This document shows, in pieces, positions 7,351 to 23,140 of a stretch of DNA of 26,519 nt (positions are counted from its first letter, which is position 1; each line of letters starts with the position of its first letter). A program made the position numbers and the translations under genes. Under the pieces are notes generated by a model. That model ran no database searches and had not been told where the DNA came from. It saw only the letters and a program-made list of their open reading frames with translations. Where the stretch lies: IMG/VR virus record IMGVR_UViG_3300035670_001099, positions 1 through 26,519 of that record; one strand, written 5' to 3'. Source of the DNA: a virus.

Positions 7351-7367
7351 TGATTGTGGAGCGGGTA

Positions 7368-7625
7368 ATGCGCATTCAGATGTTGCGAAACACCATCGTT
7401 GATCTCAAAGAGGTGAAGGCTGGTGATTTCGTTGAAACTGATCACAAATCAGCTTTGCTGTTGATCGGCATCCAGAAGGCCATTCCCGCTCCCATCGTCG
7501 AGGAAGTTATTACGGCTGACGAGCAGCCAATCCCTGTTCCAAGCAAACCCACTCCCAAACGGAGAAAGACCAATGATCCACAACCTGGGGTCGAAGACCT
7601 ACATCGCGAGCCTGCTGGCCGCTGA
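7368..7625 (+). CDS. Small head-region protein, unknown function
   Basis: An 85-aa protein starting MRIQMLRNTIVDLKEVKAGD, with a beta-rich N-terminal half (VKAGDFVETDHKSALLLIGI) and a Pro/Lys-rich tail (PVPSKPTPKRRK). I chose ATG 7368 because GGAG at 7358-7361 lies 6 nt upstream; ATG 7350, which overlaps the capsid stop, would add 6 residues. Short proteins of this pattern, with a first strand followed by AGD/AGE and a residue run ending LLIGxxKA, commonly follow phage capsid genes, but I know no function for them. Its 3' end overlaps the next gene by 53 nt. A head-completion or assembly role is inferred from position only. Confidence 0.7.
   Translation: MRIQMLRNTIVDLKEVKAGDFVETDHKSALLLIGIQKAIPAPIVEEVITADEQPIPVPSKPTPKRRKTNDPQPGVEDLHREPAGR
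7561..7575 (+). promoter_or_regulatory. Ribosome-binding site of the decoration-like gene
   Basis: GGAG at 7561-7564 with an 8-nt spacer to ATG 7573. It lies inside the preceding gene and fixes the start of the 129-aa protein, which begins 53 nt before its neighbour ends. Confidence 0.7.
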
Positions 7626-7962
7626 TTCCCGCACTGCTACCGCCACCGGCACTGGTTTTGACCTGCAAGGGTCGAACGATGCTGAAGGCGAAGCGATCGT
7701 TATCTTGGATTGCGAAGCTGGTAGCGGCACCACTCCTACCCTGAACGTCAAGCTTCAGGATTCGGCTGACAACTCGGCATGGGCTGACATCACCGGCAAG
7801 ACCTTCACCGAGGTCACCGACGCTGCTGCTGCCTTCTCCAAGATCAGCATCAACTGCAACGACGTGCGCCGTTATGTGCGTGCTGTCGGTACTCAAGCTG
7901 GCACCAACCCTGTGTTCGTGTACGGCGTCTCGCTGGTCTACAGCAAGAAGTACGGCAACTGA
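7573..7962 (+). CDS. Probable capsid decoration / shell protein
   Basis: A 129-aa beta-rich protein (TATGTGFDLQG, EAIVILDCEAG, TLNVKLQDSADNSAWADITG, DVRRYVRAVGTQAG, VFVYGVSLVYS). The pattern suggests a single jelly-roll or Ig-like domain. It lies directly behind the capsid gene, has its own good Shine-Dalgarno, and shows the same C-ending codon preference as the capsid gene, so high expression is likely. In lambda the abundant decoration protein gpD precedes the capsid gene; no gpD homologue is visible here, and this is the best candidate for that job. The assignment is from position, composition and expression signals. It shares a sequence pattern with the 107-aa protein at 8249. Confidence 0.6.
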   Translation: MIHNLGSKTYIASLLAADSRTATATGTGFDLQGSNDAEGEAIVILDCEAGSGTTPTLNVKLQDSADNSAWADITGKTFTEVTDAAAAFSKISINCNDVRRYVRAVGTQAGTNPVFVYGVSLVYSKKYGN

Positions 7963-7967
7963 TCCAG

Positions 7968-8249
7968 ATGGCTTTCCAGGATACGCTGGCATTTTTGAAC
8001 GTTGACGAGTTCGGGGTTTCCTGCACTCTTGGCGCTTCAACTTTTGTCGGCATCCTTGATTCGCCTGTGGAGGTGCTTGCGGGTGGCATGGCTTTGAGTC
8101 GGGAGTACTCGTTATTGGCGAAGACTTCTGACGTCAGCACTGCCGCCCGTGGCACTGCCATTACTGTTGATTCGGTCTCCTATACCGTCAGGGAGAATCG
8201 AGCACTTGATGACGGTTTATTTTCCGAGTTGTTGTTGAGCAAAGTCTGA
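7968..8249 (+). CDS. Head-tail joining protein (lambda gpFII-like)
   Basis: A 93-aa protein (lambda gpFII is 117). It starts with a short helix (AFQDTLAFLNVDEFGVSCTL), followed by a compact beta domain with a GILDSPVEV strand, a middle loop, and AITVDSVSYTVRENRALDDG before a final strand. This order (DEFG, then IFD/ILD plus a proline, then Y.V.E...DG) matches the gpFII/Phage_attach family as I know it. gpFII attaches to the connector and gives the docking site for the tail terminator. It lies between the shell genes and the gpU-like gene, as expected. ATG 7968 is 5 nt after the previous stop. Confidence 0.65.
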   Translation: MAFQDTLAFLNVDEFGVSCTLGASTFVGILDSPVEVLAGGMALSREYSLLAKTSDVSTAARGTAITVDSVSYTVRENRALDDGLFSELLLSKV

Positions 8250-8572
8250 TGGCACGTGTAATCGGTCTCAGTGGTGAGCTTTCTGACAACATTCATTCGT
8301 TTGGCACTGTCACTACGGTGAGCGCAACGGACTCCGTAGAAGTACAGGCCACCCTGTTTACATTTCAGCATGTCGTAACTGGCGGCAACGTGACATTCAA
8401 GGAGCAGGGAAGCCTTGATGGAACGAACTGGTACGACCTTGCTGATGCCAAGACGAAAGGCGCTGGGACATTTTGCGATCACTATGACGGGATCATGGCT
8501 CGTTACATTCGTTTGAACGTGACAGCAATTGATCCTGGTGAAACAATTACTACGACTATGGCCTGCACCTAA
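8249..8572 (+). CDS. Beta-rich virion protein, unknown
   Basis: A 107-aa protein starting at ATG 8249 in a TGATG overlap. It is almost wholly beta-type: DSVEVQATLFTFQHVVTGGN, TFKEQGSLDGTNWYDLADAK, MARYIRLNVTAIDPGETITT. The order 'strand - QxSxDxxxWxDL - RYhRhxV' recurs in the 129-aa protein at 7573 (KLQDSADNSAWADITG, RRYVRAVGTQAG), so the two may share a fold or origin. It has no lambda counterpart at this place. Possible roles are a second decoration protein, a collar or whisker protein, or a carbohydrate-binding head fibre. I do not assign one. Confidence 0.6.
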   Translation: MARVIGLSGELSDNIHSFGTVTTVSATDSVEVQATLFTFQHVVTGGNVTFKEQGSLDGTNWYDLADAKTKGAGTFCDHYDGIMARYIRLNVTAIDPGETITTTMACT

Positions 8573-8997
8573 TGGCTGACACGCGCCGCGAATTGATTTT
8601 GGCTCGCATCAAGAGCAATCTGGACACGATCACAGGTGCAACGGTCTACAGGAGCCGTGTGGAGCCTTTGGCGCGTGGTGAGGTACCTGCTGTCATTGTC
8701 GAGCCTGTCAACGATCAACCTATTGATACAAATTTCTACGACAAGCTGGACTGGTCAATGCGGGTCAGGATCACGACTTTAGTACGTGCCGCAGTGCCTG
8801 ACGATGAGTCGGATACCTACACCCAGCAAGTACATGCCAAGTTGATGGCTGATCAGACGGTGAACGGCTACGCCCTTGACTTGACACCTGATCGAACTGA
8901 CTTCAACCTGTATGAAGCTGATGTGCCGCTAGGTATTATCAGTCAGGACTTCATCGTCCGTTATCGTACAAGCAGGACTTCATTAACTAGCGCCTGA
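8572..8997 (+). CDS. Tail terminator (lambda gpU-like)
   Basis: A 141-aa protein (lambda gpU is 131). It opens with a helix (RRELILARIKSNLDTITGAT), then VYRSRVEPLARGEVPAVIVE, a beta segment WSMRVRITTLVRA, a helix with the S.TY.QQVHAKLMAD pattern and a final YEADVPLGIISQDFIVRYRT strand pair. The order 'E/D-R-P...PA..V......V.I.......D.ES......I...L' matches gpU and related terminators, which cap the finished tail tube and join it to the head. Its place between the FII-like gene and the tail tube agrees with the lambda order. Start is ATG 8572 in a TAATG overlap. Confidence 0.7.
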   Translation: MADTRRELILARIKSNLDTITGATVYRSRVEPLARGEVPAVIVEPVNDQPIDTNFYDKLDWSMRVRITTLVRAAVPDDESDTYTQQVHAKLMADQTVNGYALDLTPDRTDFNLYEADVPLGIISQDFIVRYRTSRTSLTSA

Positions 8998-9001
8998 CAT
9001 T

Positions 9002-9154
9002 ATGGCTAAGATTGAAAGGGAAGTTCCCAATCCCGGAGTGGGCGGCAGCTATTTGTTTGACCCCAAGACGGGAAAGCTTACACTGATCACAGAAACCGCC
9101 GCTCCTACCACCGATGGCACTGACACGGAAGAAGTTTCTGATCGCAAAGATTGA
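9002..9154 (+). CDS. Small protein before tail tube gene
   Basis: A 50-aa reading frame (MAKIEREVPNPGVGGSYLFD at its start, acidic end TDTEEVSDRKD). It begins 5 nt after the tail-terminator stop, fills the gap before the tail-tube gene and overlaps that gene by 41 nt in another frame. The GGSYLFDPKTGKLTLI segment reads as a natural beta hairpin, and small proteins of the type 'G.Y..D..TG....' are common just before tail-tube genes. Without it, 116 nt would be empty in an otherwise gapless operon. Function unknown. Confidence 0.6.
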   Translation: MAKIEREVPNPGVGGSYLFDPKTGKLTLITETAAPTTDGTDTEEVSDRKD

Positions 9155-10055
9155 GTCCACTTACGGGACCGATCCAAGTCCTGTCGGCGGTTCTGACGCG
9201 GTTCAGGTCACCAACCTTGAGGTGACTCCAATTGAATCTGACAATGTTCAAGCTGCTGCGTATCAAGGCTTCTTGGGCAACAGCACTCGCGGCACATTGG
9301 TTGCGAACAAGCGTGTCAGCGTCACTTTTGACATTGAGCTTGCTGGTTCGGGGACTGCTGGTACCGCGCCTGCGTTTGGTCCACTGCTGAAGTCTTGCGG
9401 GTTGAGTGAGGCGATTGTTTCGTCCACTTCGGTGACTTACGCACCGGTTTCGAGCAGCTTTAGTTCAGCAACGATCTACTGCTTCTACGACGGCACTCGT
9501 CACAAGATCACTGGTGCTCGAGGCACTGTCAGCTTCAACATGACTGCTGGTCAGTTCGCTGTTGCAAGTTTCAATTTCATTGGTATCTACAACGCACCTG
9601 ATGACACTGCCCTGTCGGGTTCGTTCACTGTGGCGAATCAGGCTGCTGCGATCGAAGTGAATGACACCAACGTGACAACTGCCACCTTCCACGGTGTGAC
9701 CAGCTCACGCATTGAGTCGTTCGATCTGGCATTGAACAACGAGCTGCTGTACAAGGAGACTGCTTCCAACAAGGAAGTGCTGATCACCAACCGCGCTCCG
9801 GGCGGCACTGCTGTGATTGAGGCTCCTGCAGTTGGTACCACTGACTTCTTTGCCAAGGCAGTTGCCTCTGCTACTGATAGCACCAGCATCGTGTTGGGGA
9901 GTACTGCTGGAAACATTGTCACTGTTAACGCAGCACAGACAGACATCACTGGTTGCAGCTACGCTGACACGAACGGCGTTATCGCTTTGTCGATGCCGTA
10001 CCTTGCCCTGCCTACCACGGCTGGCAACAATGAAATGTCACTTGTCTTCACCTGA
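9114..10055 (+). CDS. Major tail tube protein
   Basis: A 313-aa protein that stacks as rings to form the tube of a non-contractile tail (lambda gpV position). The N-terminus, MALTRKKFLIAKIESTYGTD followed by PSPVGGSDAVQV, is typical of the Phage_tube_2 type of tail-tube protein. It continues with beta segments such as VSVTFDIELAGSGTAG, KITGARGTVSFNMTAGQFAV and an ALNNELLYKE stretch. It is longer than a minimal tube protein, and the Ser/Thr-rich C-terminal part (from about 215) may form an outer domain. Codons resemble those of the capsid gene (C-ending Asn, Phe), consistent with high copy number. Start ATG 9114 lies inside the preceding small gene. Confidence 0.85.
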   Translation: MALTRKKFLIAKIESTYGTDPSPVGGSDAVQVTNLEVTPIESDNVQAAAYQGFLGNSTRGTLVANKRVSVTFDIELAGSGTAGTAPAFGPLLKSCGLSEAIVSSTSVTYAPVSSSFSSATIYCFYDGTRHKITGARGTVSFNMTAGQFAVASFNFIGIYNAPDDTALSGSFTVANQAAAIEVNDTNVTTATFHGVTSSRIESFDLALNNELLYKETASNKEVLITNRAPGGTAVIEAPAVGTTDFFAKAVASATDSTSIVLGSTAGNIVTVNAAQTDITGCSYADTNGVIALSMPYLALPTTAGNNEMSLVFT

Positions 10056-10060
10056 TCCTT

Positions 10061-10387
10061 ATGGCTTTCATTCTTAAGAAGACTGCTTCGTACAAATGGC
10101 CTGTGACAGTGGAAGTCCCTGTCGATGGTGGCAAATTTGAAAAGCAAACGTTCGATGCAGTCTTCAAGAAGATGAGTCGTTCTGCCTTCAATGATCTGAT
10201 TGACAAAGGCGATGATGTCTTGGTTGATGGGATCCTTGAAGGTTGGGACGGTGTCAAGGATGAAGAAGGCAAGGACATTGCATTCACGCAGAAGGCCAAG
10301 AAAGAGATCTGCGACGATCCCTATGTGATGCGTGCGTTGATTCAAGCGTATGCCGACAGCGTGACTGGAGCGCCAGCAAAAAACTAA
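10061..10387 (+). CDS. Tail assembly chaperone (lambda gpG-like)
   Basis: A 108-aa protein with a beta-rich N-terminus (ILKKTASYKWPVTVEVPVDG) and a helical, charged C-terminus (FKKMSRSAFNDLIDKGDDVL; ICDDPYVMRALIQAYADSV). This is the usual form of the first tail chaperone: it coats the tape measure and recruits tube protein. It lies between tail tube and tape measure as gpG does. Its last sense codons sit on a canonical slippery heptamer (10378-10384), so some ribosomes should continue into the next frame and make a gpGT-like 221-aa form. Start ATG 10061 follows the tube gene by 5 nt. Confidence 0.85.
   Translation: MAFILKKTASYKWPVTVEVPVDGGKFEKQTFDAVFKKMSRSAFNDLIDKGDDVLVDGILEGWDGVKDEEGKDIAFTQKAKKEICDDPYVMRALIQAYADSVTGAPAKN
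10378..10384 (+). promoter_or_regulatory. -1 ribosomal frameshift site A-AAA-AAC
   Basis: The heptamer A AAA AAC is in the correct phase: codons Lys107 (10379-10381) and Asn108 (10382-10384) are directly followed by the TAA stop at 10385. A -1 slip resumes at CTA 10384 and opens a 113-codon frame. The G/GT pair of lambda uses the same mechanism with GGGAAAG. Confidence 0.85.
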
Positions 10388-10725
10388 AAGTTGCCGCTGA
10401 GTATTGGGCGAAAGGCGGCGTTGTTGATGAACGTGAAACCGACCTGAAGGCTCTTGGTGCTAGCGAGGAACAGCTTGCCGCCTTAAGGTTGGAGAGTGTT
10501 GAGAAAGATTGCGAGGTGTGGGAGGAGAATTGGGATGTGCTGAATATGTTTATTCGTCTGTCAACGCAATGGCACACGAGCATGGCCGGATTGACGGGAT
10601 TGAACTACCAGAGTTTGGAATGGCTATGTAAGCTGTATGCAGTCAAGGATCCTGTGGCCATGTTTGAAGGCGTGCAGGTAATGGAGATGGCTGCCCTGTC
10701 CGTCTTGAACAAGAGGAAGAAATGA
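10384..10725 (+). CDS. Tail chaperone C-terminal extension (gpT-like, by frameshift)
   Basis: A 113-codon frame with no ATG or GTG in its first 35 codons, joined to the gpG-like protein by the -1 shift to give about 221 aa. The sequence after the junction (KLKVAAEYWAKGGVVDERET) runs into a helical region with WEENWDVLNMFIRLSTQW and AGLTGLNYQSLEWLCK, the W..W..F..L.TQW...G..GL.Y pattern of the DUF1799 family known as the downstream tail-chaperone part. The T part is thought to contact tube subunits while G binds the tape measure. A TTG at 10489 could start a shorter frame, but it would cut away clearly coding sequence. The stop overlaps the tape-measure start (ATGA). Confidence 0.82.
   Translation, partial: LKVAAEYWAKGGVVDERETDLKALGASEEQLAALRLESVEKDCEVWEENWDVLNMFIRLSTQWHTSMAGLTGLNYQSLEWLCKLYAVKDPVAMFEGVQVMEMAALSVLNKRKK
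10393..10419 (+). promoter_or_regulatory. Stem-loop downstream of slippery site
   Basis: GCCGC (10393-10397) can pair with GCGGC (10415-10419), with a G-U pair on each side (10392/10420 and 10398/10414). The spacer from the heptamer is 8 nt, in the usual range for a frameshift-stimulating structure. The loop is long (about 15 nt), so a pseudoknot is possible but I have not identified one. Confidence 0.5.
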
Positions 10726-13232
10726 GCCAGGTTACTGAACTGCTGGTACGCATCAAGGAGCAGGGCGGTGAGCAGCTCACGAGGCTTCAGGGCACCCTGA
10801 AAAACCTGGCGCAACAGACGGCTGCAACAAATATCAACTTCAGGGAAGCATCAAACGAGCTGCGCAAGATACAACAAAACTCCACAAATAGCATTAACAA
10901 CCTAAAAGGTTATGCAAATGCATGGCGCGAGATTGCGAACAGCGTTCAGCTTGGTAGTACTGAATTCAAGCAAGCCACTGCTGAAGCGGCAAAACTTGAT
11001 GCGCAACTGAGGAAAGTGCAGCCTGGTGGCCGTGGACGTCTTGCAGGCGCTGCGCAGATTGCGGGCACAATTGCCGGTGCTGGTGTCTTTGGAGGCCTTG
11101 AGGGCGGTGCTGGTGCGGCTATTGGTGGAATTGTTGGTGGCGTCCCCGGCTCAATCGTTGGTGGGGCAATTGGTGCACAGGTTGGACAGATACGTCAAGG
11201 ATTAGGAGCCACTGCAACGTATGCCGCTGACCTGTCAAAACAACAACAAGCCTTAAGACTTGTCACAAAAAATGCAGGCGAATACCAACGCGCTCTTGGA
11301 TTCATTGATAAAACAAGCCGAAGCCTTGCGATCCCGCAGGACATCCTGACTCGTCAATTTACTCAGTTGACGGCATCTGTTAAAGGTGCTGGTGGTAATG
11401 TTCGTGATGCGGAGAAAGCATTCATTGGTATCGCCTCCGGTATTAGAGGTACTGGCGGAAGCCTCGAGCAGCTTGACTCTGCATTGACGGCAACCTCTCA
11501 GGTATTCAGCAAAGGCAAGGTTAGCGCTGAAGAATTAAGGCAACAGATTGGTGAGCGGCTGCCTGGTGCTTTTAGTTTGTTTGCTGAATCAATCGGCATG
11601 ACACCTCAGGAGCTTGATAAAGCACTTGAAAAAGGTCAGGTAAGCCTTCTCGATTTCCAAAAGTTTACTGAAAAGTTATTTGCCACATATGGTGAAAATG
11701 CAAAAATTATTGCTGATGGACCTGACGCAGCCGGTGATCGCCTTAAAACATCATTGGCTCGATTGCAACAAAGTGTCGGCACATTACTGAAGCCTATCGG
11801 CGCATTTTTTCAAACAATTTTTGCCGCTATTGTTAATGCTATTGATGCGGCCACGAAAAAATTAAATCAATTTCTCGGCCTCGGCAAAGATCGTGCACAA
11901 CAAATCACTGAACTCAATAGCAAAATAACAATCCTTGATCAACAGTTGGCTGGATACTATCGCTTGCGTGACTCCGGTGAAGGTCGTGGCTTCCAAGAGC
12001 GTCTGATCAAAAACTTAGAAGCACGTCGCATTCAATTGACAGCGGAACGTGATGCCTTGAAGGCTGCTGAGGCTGCAGTCAGTGCTGGTCAAGCTGAACC
12101 CCCATCAAGGCTTCCTGGCATTTCTCCAGAAACAGCAAAAGAAAGGAAAAGCAAAGCCGATCGAGAGCAAGAAAAAATTCTTCGTGATTACAATCGCGGA
12201 CTTGAACGCGGCGCAGATCTTGCAGAGAAATTACGTCGCATGATTCGTGACGTAAATCTAGAGACGGCTGGGATTGGGGAAACAGCGGAACAAGCAATTG
12301 AGCGCAAATTTCTCGAGGCATTAAATGAAATCAATGACAAGGGAAAGGATCTCAATAAAACAATTAAAGAATTGCGTCAGCTAACTGGCGGTCGTGTAAT
12401 GTTTGAGGGATTAGTCAATGCAGATAGAAGCGGTCTTGCCCAGCAGTATTTGAGAGCCTTAGGTGCTAGGGCGGAGCGACAGCGAAACGAAGCGCTGGGT
12501 CAACTTAGCTTTGAAGAAGCTTTGTCAAAGGCACAGTTTGGCTTTACAGAAACAACAGCTTTTGATGCTGGAGTTCAGAATTATTTAAATGGCATTGGCC
12601 GCGTTGATGAAGCGCTCACCTCTTTGGCAGAAAAAGGATTTAAAGGCGTCGAGGACTCAATGGTCCAACTTGCAACAACTGGCACTTTGAACTTCAGGCA
12701 ATTTGCAGCGTCAATCTTGGCCGATACAGCCAGGATGATTATTCAACAATTAGTGCTCAAATCGATTATGCAAGCACTTGGGTTCGGCGGCGGTCTTTTC
12801 AAAGATGGATTCTTAGGAACTAAAGGTCTAGTGAATGTTTCCGGCATGCCATCTGCGGCTAATTTTGGACTGGGTTCTTTGCCAACTGGTGGATCCAATT
12901 TCTTCACTGGCTTTGCGATGGGCGGCATCATGACTCCTTATGGGCCGATGCAGCTCAAGAAGTACGCCAATGGTGGTATTGCCAACTCACCTCAGCTTGC
13001 CGTGTTCGGAGAAGGTGCACGCTCTGAGGCGTATGTGCCGCTACCTGACGGACGTTCAATCCCAGTTACGATGAGGGGCGGCGGGAATGCAACTGTTGTC
13101 GTGAACGTTGACGCTACCGGCTCTAAAGTCCAAGGCGACAATAGTGATGCAAACGCCTTGGGTCGTGTTGTGGGTGCCGCAGTGCAGCAAGAATTGATCA
13201 GGCAAAAGCGTCCTGGAGGCCTGCTCGCATAA
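10722..13232 (+). CDS. Tape measure protein (lambda gpH position)
   Basis: An 836-aa protein (lambda gpH 853) that sets tail length and is passed to the cell with the DNA. Residues 1-105 are a coiled-coil-like helix region. About 108-165 is a Gly/Ala-rich hydrophobic stretch (AGTIAGAGVFGGLEGG) that could cross a membrane. About 170-385 is the conserved tape-measure domain with KGKVSAEELRQQIGERLPGA. About 370-400 is a second hydrophobic segment (IGAFFQTIFAAIVNAI). Long charged helices follow, then a Gly-rich C-terminal region with QLAVFGEGARSEAYVPLPDG, usual for this family. At about 0.15 nm per residue the tail would be near 125 nm. The middle part (about 11230-12750) is richer in A/T codons than its neighbours. 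AGAGGA at 10712-10717 precedes ATG 10722. Confidence 0.95.
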   Translation: MSQVTELLVRIKEQGGEQLTRLQGTLKNLAQQTAATNINFREASNELRKIQQNSTNSINNLKGYANAWREIANSVQLGSTEFKQATAEAAKLDAQLRKVQPGGRGRLAGAAQIAGTIAGAGVFGGLEGGAGAAIGGIVGGVPGSIVGGAIGAQVGQIRQGLGATATYAADLSKQQQALRLVTKNAGEYQRALGFIDKTSRSLAIPQDILTRQFTQLTASVKGAGGNVRDAEKAFIGIASGIRGTGGSLEQLDSALTATSQVFSKGKVSAEELRQQIGERLPGAFSLFAESIGMTPQELDKALEKGQVSLLDFQKFTEKLFATYGENAKIIADGPDAAGDRLKTSLARLQQSVGTLLKPIGAFFQTIFAAIVNAIDAATKKLNQFLGLGKDRAQQITELNSKITILDQQLAGYYRLRDSGEGRGFQERLIKNLEARRIQLTAERDALKAAEAAVSAGQAEPPSRLPGISPETAKERKSKADREQEKILRDYNRGLERGADLAEKLRRMIRDVNLETAGIGETAEQAIERKFLEALNEINDKGKDLNKTIKELRQLTGGRVMFEGLVNADRSGLAQQYLRALGARAERQRNEALGQLSFEEALSKAQFGFTETTAFDAGVQNYLNGIGRVDEALTSLAEKGFKGVEDSMVQLATTGTLNFRQFAASILADTARMIIQQLVLKSIMQALGFGGGLFKDGFLGTKGLVNVSGMPSAANFGLGSLPTGGSNFFTGFAMGGIMTPYGPMQLKKYANGGIANSPQLAVFGEGARSEAYVPLPDGRSIPVTMRGGGNATVVVNVDATGSKVQGDNSDANALGRVVGAAVQQELIRQKRPGGLLA

Positions 13233-13603
13233 TGGCCACTTTTAACGACGCAACAGTTGGCACAAGCAGCGGCGGCACAACGCCTGATTTCAGCCTGATC
13301 AAAAAAAGCGAACCCAAGATTCGCACCGTCAAGTTTGGTGACGGATACGAACAGCGCTTGCGTTATGGGTTGAATCAAAACCCGAAGGTGTGGGATCTGA
13401 CCTGGACAGCAAAGAGCAATGCTGATGCTGATGCGATTGAGGCATTTTTTGATGCACGCGCAAATGATGGCGGCTCGTTTGACTGGACACCGCCCGCTGG
13501 TGGGGCTGCTGGTAAATATGTGTGCTTGACCTGGAGTCGCGAGCTTCAGTACACAAATATCAACATCATCACCGCAACATTCACTCAAGTGTTTGAACCA
13601 TGA
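13232..13603 (+). CDS. Minor tail protein M
   Basis: A 123-aa tail-tip protein (lambda gpM 109) that forms the ring between tape-measure end and gpL. Family signs are KIRTVKFGDGYEQRLRYGLN (about 30-49), the PKVWDLTWTAKS strand, ADAIEAFFDARA and GGSFDWTPPAG; 'FGDGYEQR..G.N' and 'F.W.PP' are the hallmarks of the gpM family. A GGAGG lies at 13215-13219 upstream of ATG 13232, which itself overlaps the tape-measure stop (TAATG). The stop overlaps the gpL start (ATGA). Confidence 0.92.
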   Translation: MATFNDATVGTSSGGTTPDFSLIKKSEPKIRTVKFGDGYEQRLRYGLNQNPKVWDLTWTAKSNADADAIEAFFDARANDGGSFDWTPPAGGAAGKYVCLTWSRELQYTNINIITATFTQVFEP

Positions 13604-15243
13604 GCGGCGAACTATTCCGGGAGCTAATCAGTTCAAACCCTGCGGCGATCATCGAGCTGTTTGAGCTTGAGCTGGTCCAGAAGATCCACGGCAGCAACAC
13701 GGTCTATCGGTTTCACAATGGTGTCAATGGCACGCTGACCAAAGGCGATGTCTATTGGGGCGGCAATAATTACATGGCCTTCCCGATCGAGGTGGGCGGG
13801 TTTGAGTACAGCGGCAACGGGCAACTGCCACGACCGAAGGTCAGGGTCTCCAACCTGTTCGGGTCGATCTCGTTGATCCTGCTGGATGTCAACGCCTACA
13901 CAGTGGGCAACGACCTGACCGGGGCGAAGTTTACGCGGATCCGCACGCTGAGCCGGTTCCTTGATGCCAATAACTTTGAGGGTGGCGCCAATCCATACGG
14001 CACACCAGACCCAACCGCTGAGATGCCGCGTGAGGTTTATTACGTTGATCGTAAGGTCACCGAGACGCGTGACTTCGTTGAGTTCGAGCTGACGGCTGCG
14101 TTTGACCTAGCTGGTGTGCGTGCCCCGAAACGCATTGCGCTGGCCACTGCCTGCCCGTGGGAGTATCGCGGTTCTGAGTGCGGCTACACCGGGACTAACT
14201 ACTTCGACGAGAACGACAACGCACTGGCGACAAGCCCTGCGACCAACTTCGCGGCTGGCACTGCAACCTTGAGCGCTGGCAGCAGTTTGTTCGTGGGTCA
14301 ATCGCTTACATCTGCAAATGCTTGGTTCAGGACCACGCTGCAGGCTGATTCGAACCTGGTCACTTATGCCAAGGACAACCCGAGCGCTAATGCACGGTGG
14401 GCACTCAATACGGTCGGCTCTGATGCTTACCGCCTTGTGATGCAGACCGATGGCAACCTGGTCCTGCTGCGCAGCAATGGCTCGGTCATCTGGGCCACGA
14501 ATACGGCGCTGCTAGGTACGCCGACGGCTGTCAGACACATGGACTGGCGACTTGAGAGCACGGTCAACACCGGCCGTGCAGGCGCGTTTTTCCATGAAGT
14601 GCTCGGCAGCGCTGACACCTATGCAGGGCAGTCGCGCACGGCGACGAAGCTGTTCACCGTTGGCACCAAGACCATTACGTTGAGCTACACGGCCACATCT
14701 TATGAGCTGCCGCAAAACTACAAGGACGCTTTCACTGCGTTAGGCCGGACCGTCAACTATGCATGGACGCAGGGCGCACCAACCATCAACGATGACTATG
14801 GCGATCCCAACCTGAAGCCCATGGCCAAGGCAACCGTCAGCGCATCGACGGGCATGTGGCGGGTGAATGAATACTTCAACGCGCAGGCGACTGTCAGCAG
14901 CAACAACCCATGGCGCAACGGTGACCCTGTCGTCAACCCCGGCACCTTGGGCACCTTCACCAGCGTTGCAGCGGTCTATTACCTGCGGACTGCTAGCGGC
15001 TATTCAACCAACTACCTGACGCAGCAGAACGACGCCAACCTAGTGCTGTATCACGGCGGCACTACGACCCCGCTATGGGCTTCTGGTTACAGCACCGCCA
15101 TTGAGCCACGGATTATCACCGGCACCGTTGACGCGTTGAATGATGTCTGCGGTAAGCGGCTAAGCAGTTGCCGCAAAAGATTTGGCGAGAATGCACAGCT
15201 ACCGTTCGGTGGGTTCCCGGGCGTTGGAGGGTTCTACGGATGA
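13600..15243 (+). CDS. Minor tail protein L with inserted bulb-type lectin
   Basis: A 547-aa form of the 232-aa tail-tip protein gpL. Residues 1-205 follow the family: N-terminal [55 protein letters not shown] and [14 protein letters not shown]. The last 35 residues ([29 protein letters not shown]) also match. Cys185, Cys194, Cys517 and Cys524 are the expected Fe-S ligands. Between Cys194 and Cys517 lies about 290 aa absent from lambda gpL, with motifs QADSNLVTY (248-256), QTDGNLVLL (282-290) and QNDANLVLY (476-484). These match the mannose-binding QxDxNxVxY signature of GNA/B-lectin domains, together with the WATNT and WASGY turns. The inserted lectin probably projects from the tail tip and binds host surface sugar. 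Residues about 300-455 are of unknown type. Confidence 0.9.
14236..15114 (+). other. Lectin-bearing insertion within gpL
   Basis: Approximate bounds (residues 213-505) of the stretch that separates the two halves of the gpL C-terminal cysteine domain. Two lectin-like repeats lie at its start (232-300) and a third near its end (460-500). The roughly 155 residues between them ([10 protein letters not shown] to the [10 protein letters not shown] region) match nothing I know, so the insert looks nested: one domain placed within the lectin or a second placed beside it. Its reading frame is intact. Confidence 0.65.
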
Positions 15244-15956
15244 TGAAGTGGCAGGAGGCTGCGGTTGAGCACGCGCTGGCGGAGGCGCCGAAAGAGGCGT
15301 GTGGCTTGCTGGTGGTGGTCAAAGGGCGTAAGCGGTACTGGCCCTGCCGCAACTTGGCGCAGACGCCACAGGATTTCTTTGTGCTCAGCCCTGAAGACTA
15401 CGCCGAAGCCGAGGATGCAGGAGAAGTGGTCGGTGTGGTTCACAGCCATCCGCGCACACCTGCAACACCAAGCGATGCCGACCGGATGGCCTGCGAGCGC
15501 AGCGGTCTGCCGTGGCATATCGTCAACCCTGGCACGCTGCAATGGGAAACCTGCGAGCCGAGCGGGTTCAAGGCGCCGCTGATCGGGCGGCAGTGGGTGT
15601 GGGGCGTGAGCGATTGCTGGACGTTGGTGCGTGACTGGTACGCCGAACAGTTTGCATTGCACCTCCCAGATTGGGAGCGGCCGGAGGTGATGCAGCAGTT
15701 CAACGAAGACCCCATGTTCGATCGCTGCTGGGGCGAGGCCGGGTTCGTTGAGGTGGATGTTGAGCGGCTGCAGGTTGGTGATGCGCTGCTGATGTCACTC
15801 GATGGCGCAAGGGGCCTGAACCACGTTGCGGTCTACGTTGGCGATCAGATGATCCTGCATCACATTCGCGGGCGGCTTAGTTCACGCGACTTGCTCGGCA
15901 GCTATTATCTGAAGAACACCGGGCGTGCGCTCCGGCACTCAAGCAGGTGCCTGTGA
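15240..15956 (+). CDS. Tail tip protein K (JAMM + NlpC/P60)
   Basis: A 238-aa two-domain protein of the gpK family, needed for tail-tip assembly and possibly for local wall degradation. The N-terminal Mov34/JAMM metalloprotease domain has Glu19 (KEACGLLV) and the zinc motif His68-Ser-His70-x7-Ser78-x2-Asp81 ([14 protein letters not shown]). The C-terminal NlpC/P60 domain has Cys126 ([14 protein letters not shown]) and His195 ([11 protein letters not shown]), so both active sites look intact. ATG 15240 overlaps the gpL stop (ATGATGA); ATG 15243 is an equal alternative. A longer reading frame opens at 15168, but it would overlap the conserved gpL C-terminus by 76 nt and adds no family sequence. 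Confidence 0.94.
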
Positions 15957-16555
15957 TGCGATTGATAAAGGTCTACGGCAGCCTGGCGAAGTTCCTAGGG
16001 CAGCGCAGCTTCAGGGCAGCGGTAAGCACACCGGCAGAGGCTGTGCGGTTTCTGGTGGCCAACTTTCCTGGCCTGCAGGCGCACATGGCTGAGCGTGAAT
16101 ACAAGGTGAGCGCAGGCAGGATTCAGCTTGCGATTGGCGATGATCCGCAGCAGTTGCACATGCCTATCGGCAGCGCTGATGTGATCCGCATTGTGCCTGT
16201 AATGGCTGGCGCTGGTGATGGCTTTGGTCAGATCTTGGCGGGCATTGCGTTGGTTGCGGCAGCAATCTTTATCCCAGGCCTTGGTCTTGGTCTTGCCGGT
16301 GCAACTGTCACCCAGGTTGGTTTATTTGGCGGCGCATTGATCTTGAGCGGTGTGTCACAACTGCTATCACCAGTCCCGCAGCTACAGGTTGGCACAGACT
16401 CTGACAGCGACCCGAAGAAGTCGTACAGCTTCTCTGGCATCCAGAACGTATCGCGCTCGGGGGTGCCTGTACCGATCATCTACGGCGAGGTGCTGGTGGG
16501 CAGCGTGGTCATCTCGGCTGGCTTAACCAGTGACAAAGTTGAGGTGGTTGATTGA
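15956..16555 (+). CDS. Tail tip assembly protein I
   Basis: A 199-aa protein (lambda gpI 223). Residues 1-80 form a ubiquitin-like (beta-grasp) domain (LIKVYGSLAKFLGQRSFRAA, PAEAVRFLVANFPGL, GSADVIRIVPVMAGAG). A hydrophobic Gly/Ala segment follows (about 85-135, ILAGIALVAAAIFIPGLGLG), and then a C-terminal part with RSGVPVPIIYGEVLVGSVV, as usual for gpI. gpI is needed in tail-tip initiation with gpJ, gpL and gpK but is not clearly kept in the virion. ATG 15956 in a TGATG overlap is preferred to GTG 15947, which would add 3 residues. Confidence 0.92.
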   Translation: MRLIKVYGSLAKFLGQRSFRAAVSTPAEAVRFLVANFPGLQAHMAEREYKVSAGRIQLAIGDDPQQLHMPIGSADVIRIVPVMAGAGDGFGQILAGIALVAAAIFIPGLGLGLAGATVTQVGLFGGALILSGVSQLLSPVPQLQVGTDSDSDPKKSYSFSGIQNVSRSGVPVPIIYGEVLVGSVVISAGLTSDKVEVVD

Positions 16556-19500
16556 TGACTGACCTGATTGCTGGCGGCGGTGGCGGTGGTGGCGGCAAAG
16601 GCGGCGGCGGTGGTGCTGGGTCGGCAAATGTCGCGCCAGATGATCTCGACTCAACACAGATAGCCAGGATCATCGACCTGATCGGTGAAGGCGAGATTGA
16701 AGGATTTCCGTCGGCCCGCACCTACAACCGAGATACAACTGAATACAACAGGGCACTGCTGAAAGACATCTATTTCAACAACACGCCGCTGGTGCGTGAA
16801 GATGCCAACCCAGCGCAACCATACGACGCCAATGATTTCAACTTTCGTGACGTTGAGGTTTACACCAGATACGGCACACAAGACCAGACCTATCTGCCGT
16901 TTACATCAACGCAGGAAGAAGTCTCGGTCAACACCAAAGTCACCAAGGCTGTCCCGGTCACGCGCAACATATCTGACACCAACCTAGACGCCATCAGGGT
17001 CACCATTTCGGTGCCAGCGCTACAGATCTTCAGGAGCAACGGCAACGTTGACGGCACCTCGGTTGAACTGCAGATTCAGTTCTCGTATGCAGGCGGTCCG
17101 TTCACAACGGTCCTAACCAACACGATCACTGGCCGCACGGCTGACCTGTATCAACGCACCTACAGGATCAACCTGAGCACACCGCCGCCGCTTGATGTCC
17201 GTGTCGTCAGGGTCACGGATGATGCACCCGCATCTGGCACCAACAACGAAAGCATTGTCGATGAGATCTACTGGGCCAGCTACACCGAACTGATCTACGC
17301 CAAGACCGCGTACCCGAACAGCGCACTGGTCGGCATCAAGATCAACGCTGAGCAGTTCAGCAGCATCCCTGAGCGCATGTATCGGGTGCGTGGGATGAAG
17401 GTGCGGCTGCCGTCCAATGCGGTGGTTGATGGCGCAACCGGGCGCCTTGCCTATGAGGGTATCTGGAATGGCAGTTTTCAAGCTGCGCAGTGGACCACCG
17501 ACCCCGTCTGGATCCTGTGGGATCTGCTCACCAGCAAGCGCTACGGGTTTGGTGATTACATCAGCGCCAGCTCACTCGACAAATGGGCATTCCTTGCCGC
17601 TAGTCAGTACGCGTCTGCGCTGGTGCCTGATGGCCTGACACTGAACGGCACCGAACCACGGTTCTCCTGCAACGTCAGTATTCAAACCCAAGAAGACGCG
17701 TACAAGCTGATCAACGACCTGTGTTCAGTGTTCCGGGCGATGCCGTTTTGGTCGGCTGGTTCGCTAACGATTGCGCAGGACAGTCCCGCTGATGCGATCT
17801 ACCTGTTCAACCAATCGAATGTCACCGAGGAAGGCTTCAGTTACAGCGGCAGCAGCTTGAAGACACGCAGCACTGTGGTCGCGGTGCGTTATTTCGACAT
17901 GAACGCAAGGCAGTACGCCTACGAAGTGGTTGAGGATGCTGATTCCATCGCAAGATACGGGATCCTTAAGAAAGAAGTCGAGGCGTTTGCCTGCACCAGT
18001 CGCGGCCAGGCACGGCGTGTGGCTGAGTGGATCCTGTACGAGGAGCACAACACGAGCGAGGTGGTCACGTTCAAGACCGGCATTGCCGCTGGACAGTACG
18101 TGCGACCCGGCAGTGTCATCAAGGTCATGGACCCGGTGCGTGCTGGTCGTATCCGCGCTGGTCGTATTGCTGAATCCATCAGCGCCACGCAGGTGCGACT
18201 GGACCGCAACGCTGAGCTGATGTTTACCGACAGCGTGCCCAGCACCTTCATCTTTCAGGTGGTGCTGCCGACCGATGATGCTACGCCGCAGGTGCAGGTG
18301 ATCAACGGCGCAACAATCAACGGCGACCTAGTCACCCTGCCGACCGCGCTGTACAGCTTGCCTGAGCCTGGCACGCCGTGGATGATCACGCTTCCTGAGC
18401 TGTCGGGCCAGCCGTTCCGTGTTCTTACGGTGCAAGAAGAGGAGCAGGGTGACAGCTATGTGATCACAGGTGTGAAGTATGACTTCCAAAAATATGACTA
18501 TATCGAGCGCGACGTGCCGCTGTCACCTGTTGACATCAGCGACCTGAACGTGCCGCCGCCGACGCCATCTGACCTAACGGCAAGCGAGGTGCTGTACGAG
18601 TCAAACGGGCAGGTCTTGTCCAAGGTGCTGGTGAGCTGGCGGCCGCAGCCCTCGATCGCGCGGTATGTGTTCCGCTACCGGTACAACAACGGCAACTGGA
18701 CCACGGTTTTTACGCGTTCGCCTGACCACGAGATCAACAACAGCGACGTTGGCCGGTACGAGTTTGAGCTGCAGGCCGAGAACGCAGGCTTTAAGCGCTC
18801 AGGCATTGCAACAGCCACATTCGACGCACTGGGCAAGACCGCACCACCGGCGACCATCCCGGATCTGTTCATCGCACCGATCGACGACAAGAACGCTGAG
18901 CTGTACTGGCCGCAGTCGGTTGATCTTGACGTGCGCGTTGGCGGTGAGGTGCGGATCCGGTACACACCTGAGATCGGCGTTAATGCCACATGGGGCCGGG
19001 CCAATGACATCGTGCCAGCGGTCAACGGCAGCAGCACCCGCAAGATCGTGCCACTGCTTGAGGGCACCTACCTGATCCGCGCGGTGGACAGCCTTGGCAA
19101 CGAATCGGCCGGTGTTGCTGCAGTGGTGGTTGACCTGCCAGCGCCGCAGGATACGTTCTTGGTGCAGGAGTACCGCGAGGATGACGACAGCCCGCCATTC
19201 CAGGGCAGCGCCAGCAGCATGTTCTACAGCGCTGATGAGGGCGGCCTTGCGCTGACTTCTACGGGCCTGATTGACGACATTTCTGATTGGGACGAGATCA
19301 CGACGATTGACTTTTACGGCGATATCAGCAGCAGCGGGTCATACCAGTTCCTCAACACGCTGGACCTGAGCCAGGTGTATGACATCGACCTGCTGGCCAC
19401 GCTCAAGACACGCGCATTCCAGCCTGGTAACGCATGGGATGAACGCACCGACCTGATCGACGCATGGTCTGACATCGACGGTGACGATCTGAGCGCAGTC

Positions 19501-19920
19501 AATGCACAGCTCTACGTGCGCACCACCAACGACAACCCAAGCGGCACACCGACATGGGGCAGTTGGCAGCCGTTCGTCAACAACACGACACGCGGCAGAG
19601 GCTTCCAGTTCAAGGTTGAGGCGCGCAGCACCAACACATCGCAGAACATCCTGATTGAGCAGTTAGGCGTCGTGACCAAGCTGCAGCGCAGAACCGAGAT
19701 CCAACGCAACCAGACCAGTGGCACCGTGACATTCCCGACTGCGTTCTACGGCACGCCAAGCGTGGGTATCACGGCGCAGGACATGCAGCAGGGTGATTAT
19801 TTCACGGTAAGCAGCGTCAGCAGAACTGGCTTTACGGTGACCTTCCGCGATAGTGGCGGTAGCATAGTGACCAGGACCTTTGATTACCAAGCCGTTGGCC
19901 ACGGCAGGCAGATCACCTAA
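16555..19920 (+). CDS. Tip attachment protein J / central fibre
   Basis: A 1121-aa protein (lambda gpJ 1132), the trimeric host-specificity protein at the tail end. The N-terminus has a poly-Gly run (residues 6-20, broken by one Lys) followed by QIARIIDLIGEGEIEGFPSA, the usual gpJ opening. The hub region includes NTKVTKAVPVTRNI, DPVWILWDLLTSKRYGFGDY and GSLTIAQDSPAD. Two fibronectin type III-like domains lie near 664-760 (PTPSDLTASEVLYE, VLVSWRPQPSIARYVFRYRY) and 765-862 (IDDKNAELYWPQS, GTYLIRAVDSLGNESAG). The C-terminal part (about 870-1121) is beta-rich and should carry receptor contacts. Start is ATG 16555 overlapping the gpI stop; TTG 16552 would add one residue. Confidence 0.95.
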   Translation: MTDLIAGGGGGGGGKGGGGGAGSANVAPDDLDSTQIARIIDLIGEGEIEGFPSARTYNRDTTEYNRALLKDIYFNNTPLVREDANPAQPYDANDFNFRDVEVYTRYGTQDQTYLPFTSTQEEVSVNTKVTKAVPVTRNISDTNLDAIRVTISVPALQIFRSNGNVDGTSVELQIQFSYAGGPFTTVLTNTITGRTADLYQRTYRINLSTPPPLDVRVVRVTDDAPASGTNNESIVDEIYWASYTELIYAKTAYPNSALVGIKINAEQFSSIPERMYRVRGMKVRLPSNAVVDGATGRLAYEGIWNGSFQAAQWTTDPVWILWDLLTSKRYGFGDYISASSLDKWAFLAASQYASALVPDGLTLNGTEPRFSCNVSIQTQEDAYKLINDLCSVFRAMPFWSAGSLTIAQDSPADAIYLFNQSNVTEEGFSYSGSSLKTRSTVVAVRYFDMNARQYAYEVVEDADSIARYGILKKEVEAFACTSRGQARRVAEWILYEEHNTSEVVTFKTGIAAGQYVRPGSVIKVMDPVRAGRIRAGRIAESISATQVRLDRNAELMFTDSVPSTFIFQVVLPTDDATPQVQVINGATINGDLVTLPTALYSLPEPGTPWMITLPELSGQPFRVLTVQEEEQGDSYVITGVKYDFQKYDYIERDVPLSPVDISDLNVPPPTPSDLTASEVLYESNGQVLSKVLVSWRPQPSIARYVFRYRYNNGNWTTVFTRSPDHEINNSDVGRYEFELQAENAGFKRSGIATATFDALGKTAPPATIPDLFIAPIDDKNAELYWPQSVDLDVRVGGEVRIRYTPEIGVNATWGRANDIVPAVNGSSTRKIVPLLEGTYLIRAVDSLGNESAGVAAVVVDLPAPQDTFLVQEYREDDDSPPFQGSASSMFYSADEGGLALTSTGLIDDISDWDEITTIDFYGDISSSGSYQFLNTLDLSQVYDIDLLATLKTRAFQPGNAWDERTDLIDAWSDIDGDDLSAVNAQLYVRTTNDNPSGTPTWGSWQPFVNNTTRGRGFQFKVEARSTNTSQNILIEQLGVVTKLQRRTEIQRNQTSGTVTFPTAFYGTPSVGITAQDMQQGDYFTVSSVSRTGFTVTFRDSGGSIVTRTFDYQAVGHGRQIT

Positions 19921-20705
19921 TGGCACAGGCAACTGATTATTCACTGGCTAACCAGTCTGGAGCCAACTTCAGATCTGAGCTGAACACGATCCTGGCGGCC
20001 ATCGTCAGTCAGAACAGCGGCTCGACTGCACCCAGCACAACCTATGCCTACCAGTGGTGGATTGACAGCGGTGTCAGCCCGGCGCTGCTCAAGATCCGCA
20101 ACGCTGCAAACGACGCATGGATCACGGTCGGTGATGTCACGGCTGCCAACCTTGGCCTGCTGACGAGTGCTACAGCGGCGAGCACCTACCTTGCGCTGGC
20201 TGGTGGCACGGTTACGGGTGAGCTGCTGATCGGCACGGCTGGTTCGCTGGTGTTTGAGGGCAGCAGCGCTGATGCAAATGAGACCACGCTGGCGGTTACG
20301 AACCCGACCGCAGACCGCACGATCACGCTGCCTGATGCGTCGCTGACGGTTGCGGGCATCAACCTAGCGCAGACGTTCACCGCTGCACAGCGCGGCACGA
20401 TTTCGGCGCTGACGGATGGCGCAACGATCACGCCTGATTTTGCAGTGGCCAACAACTTCTCGGTCACGCTGGGCGGCAACAGGACATTGGCCAACCCAAC
20501 CAATCTGACAGCAGGGCAAAGCGGCGCGATCTGGATCACTCAGGATGGCTCCGGGGGGCGGACGATGGCTTATGGGTCACAGTGGGACTTTACTGGTGGA
20601 ACCGCGCCGACGCTCAGCACCGCTGCAAGTGCTCGTGACTGCCTTGTCTACGCGGTGCAGTCCACCACGCAGATCACCGCCACCCTGATCACCAACTTGA
20701 GCTGA
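19920..20705 (+). CDS. Tail fibre-like structural protein
   Basis: A 261-aa protein starting MAQATDYSLANQSGANFRSE. This opening and the QWWIDSGVSPALLKIRNAAN / DAWITVG segment are familiar from cyanophage tail-fibre and structural proteins. The middle (ETTLAVTNPTADRTITLPDA) is the repeat-like 'T....NPT..RTITLPD..G' motif found in shaft parts of many side fibres. The C-terminal third is a beta-type region (FSVTLGGNRTLANPTNLTAG; DGSGGRTMAYGSQW) that occurs on many fibre and base proteins. It likely forms a side fibre or the adaptor for the long fibre encoded next. TAATG overlap with gpJ. Confidence 0.8.
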   Translation: MAQATDYSLANQSGANFRSELNTILAAIVSQNSGSTAPSTTYAYQWWIDSGVSPALLKIRNAANDAWITVGDVTAANLGLLTSATAASTYLALAGGTVTGELLIGTAGSLVFEGSSADANETTLAVTNPTADRTITLPDASLTVAGINLAQTFTAAQRGTISALTDGATITPDFAVANNFSVTLGGNRTLANPTNLTAGQSGAIWITQDGSGGRTMAYGSQWDFTGGTAPTLSTAASARDCLVYAVQSTTQITATLITNLS

Positions 20706-23140
20706 TGCTGGTCCCCGGTTCCGTCAATCCGCTGCTGCTCACTAGCGCTGCAGGTGCTGCTCCTGCTGGCTATCAGATCCCGCGTTCTATCCGCATAAAC
20801 TCAGCAGATTCGGCTAATTTTTCCCGCACATTTTCTACAAGCGGAACCAATCTAAAAATACGCACCTTCAGCGCGTGGATAAAAAGAACAAAACTGGGAA
20901 GCAATTCGGCAATTTTCCAAGGATACGATGGGTCATCGGGCGCATCAAACGCGCTTTACTTTGACACAAATAACAAACTAAGCCTAGAAAATGGATCGGG
21001 CGGCCAGTTGCTGACAACTACTCAAGTTTTTCGGGATACTAGCGCGTGGTTTCATTTACTAGTTGCCATTGACACCACCCAGTCGACAGATACAAATAGG
21101 GTCAAGATTTATGTAAATGGCAGTCAAGTTACTAATTTTTCATCGACTAGCTATATTGGCCAAAATGTAGACACAATGTGGTGTTTGGCAAATGGCAACA
21201 ATAAAATTGGAGCGTGGTGGAATAACAGTAGCTACTCTGATTTGTACCTTGCCGAGATACATTTCATCGACGGCCAAGCGCTGACCCCCACCAGCTTTGG
21301 CGAGTTCTCCGCCACCACAGGCGTATGGGTGCCCATCGAGTACACCGGCAGCTACGGCACCAATGGCTTTTACCTGACCTTCTCCGACAACAGCGGCACC
21401 ACCAGCACCACGCTCGGCAAAGACAGCGCAGGCAGCAACAACTGGACGCCAAACAATTTCTCGGTGTCATCCGGCGCGGGTAACGATTCGCTGGTGGATG
21501 TTCCCACTAATGGCAGTGAGGTTGATACGGGCGTTGGGGGTGAGGTTCGTGGAAACTATTGCACTTGGAACGCAGTCGATAACGGAGGAGTCACGCTTTC
21601 TAATGGCAACCTTGATACGGTTACTTCAACCTCTTGGAAAGCCGTTAGAGGAACCATAGGAATTAGCAGTGGCAAATGGTACTGGGAATACACCATGACT
21701 GCCGCTGGTTACACTATGCTTGGCATGACTGGGCCTGCTGCTTCATTGACGACATACGCAGGTGTTGCAGCTACAGGATATGCTTATTATTCGTTAAATG
21801 GCGATAAATGGAACAACAATACAAATACAAGCTATGGCAATTCGTTCACAACAAACGACGTGATTGGCGTCGCCTTTGACGCTGATAACGGCAAAATCTG
21901 GTTTTCTAAAAACGGAACTTGGCAGGCAAGCGGTAACCCCGCCGCCGGTACAAATGCAGCCTATTCCAGCATCCCTTCTGGCACTTATTTCCCTACGGTT
22001 TCGCAAGATAATTCTGCAGGAGCAACCGGAGGTGCCACAAACTTTGGTGCTCGGAGTTTTGCCTACACAGCCCCCAGCGGCTTCAAGGCGCTCAATACTG
22101 CATCGTTACCGGCCCCAGTAGTCACAAAGCCTTCCACTGTGATGGATGTGAAGCTCTACACCGGCAATGGCAGCACGCAGACTATTACCGGTTTTGAATT
22201 CAGCCCAGACTTGATTTGGTTAAAACGTCGGAATCAAAGTGCTGATCACAATGTTTTGGATACCGTTCGTGGGTTGGGTGACACTGGATGGTCGCGTGTT
22301 ATTTACACCAGCGCAACAAATGCTGAAGATTCTGGCACTACAAACATTATTTCCTCGTTCAATAGCGACGGATTTACGCTTGGCACGGAAGGCACGACAA
22401 ACAATAACGGAGGATCATTTGTCGCATGGTGCTGGGACGCCGGCAGCTCCACCGTCACGAACACACAAGGCTCCATCACTGGTACGGTGAGCGTTCGTGC
22501 TAACACCACGGCAGGATTTAGCGTGGTGACCTACACTGGCACTGGCGCTAATGCAACGGTAGGACATGGTTTAGGCGTTGCACCTAGGATGGTCATCATT
22601 AAGAGACGCGATACAACAGGTAACTGGGCCGTTTATCATGCTGAGCTTGCTAATACGCAATACATGCTGCTTAACAGCAACGCTGCTGTCACCACGGGCA
22701 CGACGTACTGGAACAGCACTGCTCCAACAAGCACTGTTTTTAGTGTTGGCACATCAACGGACACAAATGCGTCAAGTGGAACTTATGTTGCTTACTGTTT
22801 CAGTGCTGTATCGGGTTATTCGGCCTTTGGGGGCTATCAAGCAGGAACGGAGCCATTTGTGTTCCTTGGATTCCGTCCCCGCTACGTCATGATCAAGCGC
22901 ACGGCATCCGGAGATGGTTGGGCAATATTTGATACCAGCAGGACAATTTATAACGTTGCAACAAGCAGACTTGAAGCTGATACATCCGCAGCAGAAGGCG
23001 GCACTGATGGAGTGGATCTTTTAAGTAATGGCTTCAAAATCAAGACGACTTGGGGTGGAATGGGTGGCTCTTCAGGCAGTGGATTGATGATTTACGCAGC
23101 ATTCGCCGAATCCCCCTTCAACTACGCCCGCGCCCGATGA
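20705..23140 (+). CDS. Multi-domain tail fibre / adhesin (LamG, SPRY, repeats)
   Basis: An 811-aa probable receptor-binding fibre. About 20-190: LamG/concanavalin-type beta sandwich (FSAWIKRTKLGSNSAIFQGY, WFHLLVAIDTTQ, VKIYVNGSQV, DLYLAEIHFIDGQALTPTSF). About 190-265: linker (GFYLTFSDNSG, NNWTPNNFSVSSGAGNDSL) common in marine phage fibres. About 285-460: SPRY-like domain (GKWYWEYTMTAAG, DVIGVAFDADNGKIWFSKNG). About 480-811: three related tandem modules (listed separately). The base composition changes along the gene: the LamG part and the modules are A/T-rich, whereas about 21260-21480 is GC-rich like gpJ, which suggests assembly by domain exchange. TGATG overlap with the preceding fibre gene. 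Confidence 0.85.
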   Translation: MLVPGSVNPLLLTSAAGAAPAGYQIPRSIRINSADSANFSRTFSTSGTNLKIRTFSAWIKRTKLGSNSAIFQGYDGSSGASNALYFDTNNKLSLENGSGGQLLTTTQVFRDTSAWFHLLVAIDTTQSTDTNRVKIYVNGSQVTNFSSTSYIGQNVDTMWCLANGNNKIGAWWNNSSYSDLYLAEIHFIDGQALTPTSFGEFSATTGVWVPIEYTGSYGTNGFYLTFSDNSGTTSTTLGKDSAGSNNWTPNNFSVSSGAGNDSLVDVPTNGSEVDTGVGGEVRGNYCTWNAVDNGGVTLSNGNLDTVTSTSWKAVRGTIGISSGKWYWEYTMTAAGYTMLGMTGPAASLTTYAGVAATGYAYYSLNGDKWNNNTNTSYGNSFTTNDVIGVAFDADNGKIWFSKNGTWQASGNPAAGTNAAYSSIPSGTYFPTVSQDNSAGATGGATNFGARSFAYTAPSGFKALNTASLPAPVVTKPSTVMDVKLYTGNGSTQTITGFEFSPDLIWLKRRNQSADHNVLDTVRGLGDTGWSRVIYTSATNAEDSGTTNIISSFNSDGFTLGTEGTTNNNGGSFVAWCWDAGSSTVTNTQGSITGTVSVRANTTAGFSVVTYTGTGANATVGHGLGVAPRMVIIKRRDTTGNWAVYHAELANTQYMLLNSNAAVTTGTTYWNSTAPTSTVFSVGTSTDTNASSGTYVAYCFSAVSGYSAFGGYQAGTEPFVFLGFRPRYVMIKRTASGDGWAIFDTSRTIYNVATSRLEADTSAAEGGTDGVDLLSNGFKIKTTWGGMGGSSGSGLMIYAAFAESPFNYARAR
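22187..23122 (+). repeat. Three tandem protein modules in the fibre
   Basis: Each module starts with a P-x-x-h-h-h-K-R strand (FSPDLIWLKRR near 22193, VAPRMVIIKRR near 22577, FRPRYVMIKRT near 22870), continues with W plus a short strand (HNVLDTVRG, WAVYHAEL, WAIFDTSR), then GF.L/FSVGT/GFKIKT, and ends with an SG/GG-hhhYxxFA-type strand (GSFVAWCWDAG, GTYVAYCFSAV, GLMIYAAFAES). The copies are clear at the protein level but have diverged at the DNA level. Confidence 0.7.

Follow-up and report, generated by a model that had tools for sequence, protein, structure and literature searches.

A GNA-type lectin with a nested domain in the Fe-S loop of the tail-tip protein gpL: a probable host-adhesion cassette exchanged among uncultured phages

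We have analysed a viral record of 26,519 bases (hereafter the window, meaning the whole of this stretch) in which the gene for the tail-tip hub protein gpL carries an insert of ca. 300 residues between the second and third of its Fe-S cysteines. The insert is composite, a domain within a lectin domain within the Fe-S domain, and phages that are otherwise nearly identical trade either the inner domain alone or the entire insert. In lambda-like phages it is gpJ and the side fibres that are commonly examined for determinants of host recognition; here the Fe-S hub carries a putative adhesin. We consider it probable that the insert gives the tail-tip hub an adhesin for glycans of the host surface, which is at the same time an exchangeable cassette for host range. 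Its location in the virion would follow from analogy with the lambda structure, and sugar binding, the ligand and the role in adsorption are likewise inferred.

The head and tail genes of the window form a lambda-like module according to their PHROG and Pfam matches. Genes for TerL, portal, capsid/protease and tube precede the tape measure gene (10722-13232), and the order tape measure-M-L-K-I-J agrees with H-M-L-K-I-J, with M (13232-13603) assigned by position only and gpL by homology. The gpK protein combines JAB and NlpC/P60 domains, and its gene probably starts at the ATG at 15240, in an ATGATG overlap with the gpL stop, rather than at the TTG at 15168, since the PHROG and Pfam matches begin only at residue 25-28 of the longer frame. 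After gpI and gpJ come fibre-type proteins, one of them with LamG and SPRY-like domains, and then an endolysin. The capsid gene (4696-7350) encodes a fusion with an S78 protease and has a Hva1_TUDOR-like domain at residues 217-263. The genome is also a mosaic of head and tail modules, with a boundary at ca. 8250-8570, as judged by comparison with a related contig (L099) that is 96.4% identical over the head part (positions 1-8249, the first 8.2 kb) and mostly 67-75% identical over the tail part (8572-23140).

The gpL gene (13600..15243, plus strand, as are all the features of gpL given below) is an open reading frame of 547 codons whose product matches Phage_tail_L (PF05100) with an E-value of 1.4e-53 and 181.8 bits, against a curated cut-off of 25, and lambda gpL itself is also matched by phmmer. 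The first 174 residues (13600..14121) make up the HDI beta-sandwich core, which in our AlphaFold2 model superposes on lambda gpL (8iyk_L) over residues 13-174 with a Z of 15.9 and 2.5 Å for 144 residues. The two halves of the Fe-S domain lie at 14122..14229, with Cys185 and Cys194, and at 15130..15240, with Cys517 and Cys524 and the gpL C-terminus, which is PF09356-like (E 0.008). These are the only four cysteines of the protein and all of them are invariant among 65 homologues; a [4Fe-4S] cluster is a putative feature of this gpL. The earlier note on this DNA, made from the letters alone, had supposed that the gpL core could still fold around the insert. For the HDI the model bears this out, but for the Fe-S domain, the halves of which were modelled with pLDDT below 50, folding can only be presumed. 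Among the homologues there were two that are devoid of the Fe-S cysteine domain. One of them (Marine virus AG-345-A17, L262:1992-2984) has an insert of ca. 130 residues elsewhere, in the HDI after LDAVNF, in which a cupredoxin-like copper motif (THPLRI...YYCSTHGNSMG) can be seen by eye, with no Pfam match. The other (Prochlorococcus phage MED4-184, L264:2477-3052) is only ca. 190 residues long and its C-terminal end reads KRIITRKEFPSVGTFV.

The insert covers residues ca. 211-510 (14230..15129). Between Cys194 and Cys517 there are 322 residues, and only 22 in compact homologues, from which the size of ca. 300 residues follows. The compact relatives (L030-L042, recovered with the same query as the inserted ones) have 57-66% identity in the core, 66% in the case of L042, and show no interruption between the second and third cysteines; the insert is likewise missing at 75 of 76 loci found in the bacterial and archaeal genome_contigs set. 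At the DNA level, gpL aligns with related phage contigs until ca. 14250-14280 and again from ca. 15118-15142, with no alignment in between, so that the nucleotide comparison locates the insert without recourse to the translation. The two cysteines named in the earlier note as its limits were exact, and its estimate of ca. 290 residues had the right order of size, although we arrive at ca. 300. Two gpL frames from bacterial genomes, of 421 and 428 residues (G395 C33:216002-217171 and G096 C102:52848-54038), also have inserts, near positions 91-94 of the Phage_tail_L profile, which is not the site described here.

That the insert is a GNA-type (B-lectin) module had been proposed from its motifs, and sequence and structure comparisons now agree on it. 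Searched with phmmer against PDB sequences, residues ca. 223-303 retrieve GNA-type lectins at E-values from 3e-12 to 1e-6 (3.1e-12 for 4oit, 1.3e-10 for 1npl, and also pyocin L1 and putidacin L1), and a profile built from six of the inserts matches pyocin L1 at 2.7e-20. The AlphaFold2 model (65 rows) gives the insert a pLDDT of mostly ca. 90-97, with dips to 75-83. In a Foldseek search with the gpL model, the core is matched by lambda gpL and the insert by GNA-type lectins, and by VIA the closest structure is the fungal Marasmius oreades lectin 4tkc (Z 18.2, 1.4 Å, 112 of 118 residues); the snowdrop lectin 1msa has a Z of 14.6. Since the 4tkc alignment runs over residues 221-500 of the model, all three beta-prism II subdomains are present in it, the first two at residues 221-304 (14260..14511) and the third, which completes the prism, at residues 468-500 (15001..15099), after a gap of ca. 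160 residues. With the prism complete, the lectin fold is well supported, as had been expected of a structure model. The Pfam B_lectin profile reaches only 19.3-21.5 bits against a cut-off of 32.4, its best stretch being positions 14-43 of 105, and the domain is interrupted. A match to Glyco_hydro_20b (E 0.003), below the cut-off and overlapping the lectin, was treated as due to chance. The earlier reading of the whole insert as lectin therefore stands for ca. 120 of the ca. 300 residues; the rest belongs to a separate, nested domain.

The mannose-binding motif QxDxNxVxY occurs, as had been noticed from the letters, in two exact copies and a near one. The exact ones are QADSNLVTY (residues 248-256, 14341..14367) and QNDANLVLY (residues 476-484, 15025..15051), and the near copy, second in order, is QTDGNLVLL (residues 282-290, 14443..14469), in which Leu replaces a Tyr that is mostly restored in relatives at 93-97% identity. 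In a diverged set of 31 inserts (mutual identity below 80%), at least one exact motif is kept in 25 and none in the other six; the third motif is often lost, and L027, L169 and L136 are among those with no motif at all. Still, conservation is higher at the motif positions than elsewhere in the lectin (0.68 vs. 0.56, permutation p 0.028). Canonical mannose binding is thus plausible in the protein of the window, where sites 1 and 3 are kept, but it cannot be general, given the six inserts without an exact motif, the frequent loss of the third one and the missing Tyr in the second motif of the window itself.

The nested middle domain (residues ca. 305-467, ca. 160 residues, 14512..15000) sits between subdomains 2 and 3 of the prism. 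It is beta-rich and, modelled alone, reaches a pLDDT of 86 and a pTM of 0.83. No believable match was found in the PDB (the best Foldseek E-value was 0.15 and the best VIA Z 3.9) and neither Pfam nor PHROGs gave a family that we find credible; a match to the flagellin hook IN motif (E 0.002) is weak and we do not believe it. Among the structures of BFVD, two viral proteins are similar, D6PHN5 (E 5.6e-7) and D6PFJ6 (E 1.4e-6). The predicted fold is in other words unmatched in the PDB, and we do not claim that it is new. Judged by the mean frequency of the majority residue, the gpL core is the most conserved part (0.79), followed by the lectin (0.56) and the middle domain (0.54).

Evidence of exchange is provided by two environmental contigs, L018 and L023. 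Along ca. 6 kb, in a stretch reaching from ca. 2.1 kb upstream of the gpL start to 3.4 kb downstream of it, almost all 100-nt bins show 99-100% identity, but at nucleotides ca. 900-1400 of gpL identity drops to ca. 55% with a length difference of 30 nt. The divergent region opens directly behind IWATNTD and closes directly ahead of NNYLSMQ, that is, at the boundaries of the prism, so that here the middle domain has been swapped alone. The two contigs constitute a ready-made natural pair of phages that, over these kilobases, differ almost only in the inner domain. A weaker form of the same pattern is seen between L073 and L086 (lectin 99%, middle domain 74%, third repeat 100%). There are also pairs with a gpL core 99-100% identical in which the insert is different throughout, and between L073 and L158, with a core 100% identical and inserts only 41-53% identical, the prism diverges along with the inner domain. 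These swaps are known from metagenomic contigs only. Such a turnover is typical of receptor-binding modules, and from it we suspect a part for the module in the recognition of the bacterial host by the tail.

It could be argued that the prism is a scaffold or protein-binding module that positions the inner domain, the latter being the true receptor-binding part (for an outer-membrane protein, for example), and that sugar binding is vestigial. We regard this as unlikely, although the motifs are degenerate in several lineages, the inner domain of L018 and L023 was exchanged while the prism stayed identical, and in LlpA bacteriocins one prism recognizes the protein BamA and not a sugar (PMC6240691). 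Most inserts, however, retain one to three intact motifs, at positions conserved above their neighbors, and in the pair L073 and L158 the prism has not remained constant under a changing inner domain. That the lectin sticks to environmental polysaccharides or particles and makes encounters more frequent with no host specificity seems to us very improbable. Phage Ig-like decorations have been proposed to act in that way (a proposal cited in PMC10721106), and the relatives with the insert are environmental viral contigs, while the loci of the genome_contigs set, mainly prophage-like, are nearly all compact; yet the sharp exchange between near-identical phages suggests diversifying selection, of the kind that acts on specificity.

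We therefore prefer the reading as an adhesin of the host surface, which would work as follows. The Fe-S domain of lambda lies on the outer surface of a trimeric tip (PMC10721106), and for this reason the insert, placed in a loop at the surface that links the second cysteine to the third, should protrude. With three gpL per tip as in lambda, three prisms and three inner domains would be displayed around it. The prisms may attach to envelope sugars of the host through many weak contacts, D-mannose-like sugars such as the D-rhamnose or D-mannose of LPS O-chains or capsule, keeping the tail upright and letting it search until gpJ engages the receptor, and the inner domain may add or set the specificity. 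The earlier note had proposed LPS or S-layer glycans as the ligand and a reversible contact, both of which are conjectural. Recombination in the conserved flanks would swap the inner domain or the whole insert and change what the tip binds, leaving the hub core untouched. Sugar receptors fit with other genes of this phage, namely the LamG/SPRY-like fibre protein and gpJ (16552-19920), the C-terminus of which (residues 1034-1117) matches Gp53-like_C and H_lectin weakly, below the Pfam cut-off, and is possibly another sugar-binding tip. More tentatively, the cassette might have two tiers, a possibility to which we give somewhat less than even weight, with the Fe-S loop as a standing acceptor site, the GNA prism as glycan anchor and docking frame, and the inner domain as the variable receptor-binding element. 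If that were true, gpL would be a major determinant of host range in this lambda-like group and not just a conserved structural hub.

Scans of viral contigs detected the same insert in many uncultured phages, in answer to one of the checks that had been suggested, although they do not estimate its prevalence because the sequence of the window itself served as the query that gathered the contigs. In the measure used, the loop has either 20 or 289-330 residues, with no intermediates. The only inserted locus of the genome_contigs set (L183:1388-2611, from a bacterial MAG contig) begins as a gpL lectin frame and continues as sequence of no relation to it, in which a reading frame looks receptor-like; it is probably a chimeric assembly or a truncation and was left out. 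Among 50,697 records of cultured phages there was no credible match to the insert, none at E 0.01 and otherwise weak local lectin-like matches. In the tree of the core, 40 of the 41 inserted rows fall in one supported clade, a pattern that points to an insert gained once or twice and then kept for long across a large family of uncultured phages. It is hardly tenable that the mature protein lacks the insert, as it would if this were an intein or similar element, or that assembly produced it as an artefact, even though it interrupts a conserved domain exactly between two functional pairs of cysteines. The homologues are many and independent, have open frames and range from 42 to 98% identity, the lectin fold is clear, and Pfam finds no intein or Hint domain in gpL or in the insert at E ≤ 1. 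We have rejected this explanation; removal of the insert from the mature protein was among the findings that, according to the earlier note, would overturn its proposal.

A putative adhesin in gpL that recombination turns over and that a large clade has retained opens two questions to testing. One is the use of the Fe-S domain that gpL exposes at its surface, for which a role as rigid support of adhesion modules is one answer; the other is which viral genes determine host range in abundant uncultured phages. The insert sits, moreover, at a loop shared with two known systems. In the hub proteins of the gene transfer agent RcGTA (PMC7296036) and roseophage R4C (PMC10276861), the Fe-S loop holds a domain for which oligosaccharide binding has been proposed. 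In both (g13 in RcGTA) the insertion lies, as in our gpL, between the second and third cysteines of a gpL-like Fe-S domain; in the R4C hub (vBDshSR4C_014) we read the cysteines directly at 147, 157, 244 and 251, with the inserted domain at 162-243. Their inserts, in contrast, have ca. 82 residues and are named for their resemblance to an insertion domain of the phage LKA1 tailspike, while that of the window has ca. 300, with a GNA prism and a nested domain, and belongs to a family with evidence of module exchange. The RcGTA hub aligned with our gpL model over the HDI only (model residues 15-172), and the insert matches GNA prisms.

Lambda gpL and the Phage_tail_L family have in common with the window protein the core sequence, the HDI fold, the four cysteines and the gene order, but lambda gpL has 232 residues, with only 22 between Cys182 and Cys205. 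The GNA-type lectins, with 4tkc as best match, share the beta-prism II and the QxDxNxVxY motifs, and differ in that the prism described here is split by a domain of ca. 160 residues, has one altered motif and is part of a predicted virion protein. LlpA and pyocin L1 have bacterial GNA-type prisms directed at bacterial surface sugars, the D-rhamnose of LPS (PMC6240691), but these bacteriocins are not attached to any tail and have their two prisms in tandem, and the LlpA-type layout of two tandem lectin domains plus a C-terminal extension is not that of this gpL, a tail gene with one interrupted prism. In the evolved Dit of siphophages of Gram-positive hosts, too, a conserved protein of the tail tip has received a carbohydrate-binding module in one of its loops (PMC7291167), although the carrier is Dit rather than the Fe-S hub and the module has another fold. 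In the open papers that we searched (subscription papers were not covered) we found no GNA-type lectin in gpL, nor the nested domain or its clean exchange. In short, RcGTA and R4C already offer examples of a hub with a presumed sugar-binding module in its Fe-S loop, and what those papers did not yield is a GNA prism at that place, the domain nested in it and the clean exchange of the latter between phages.
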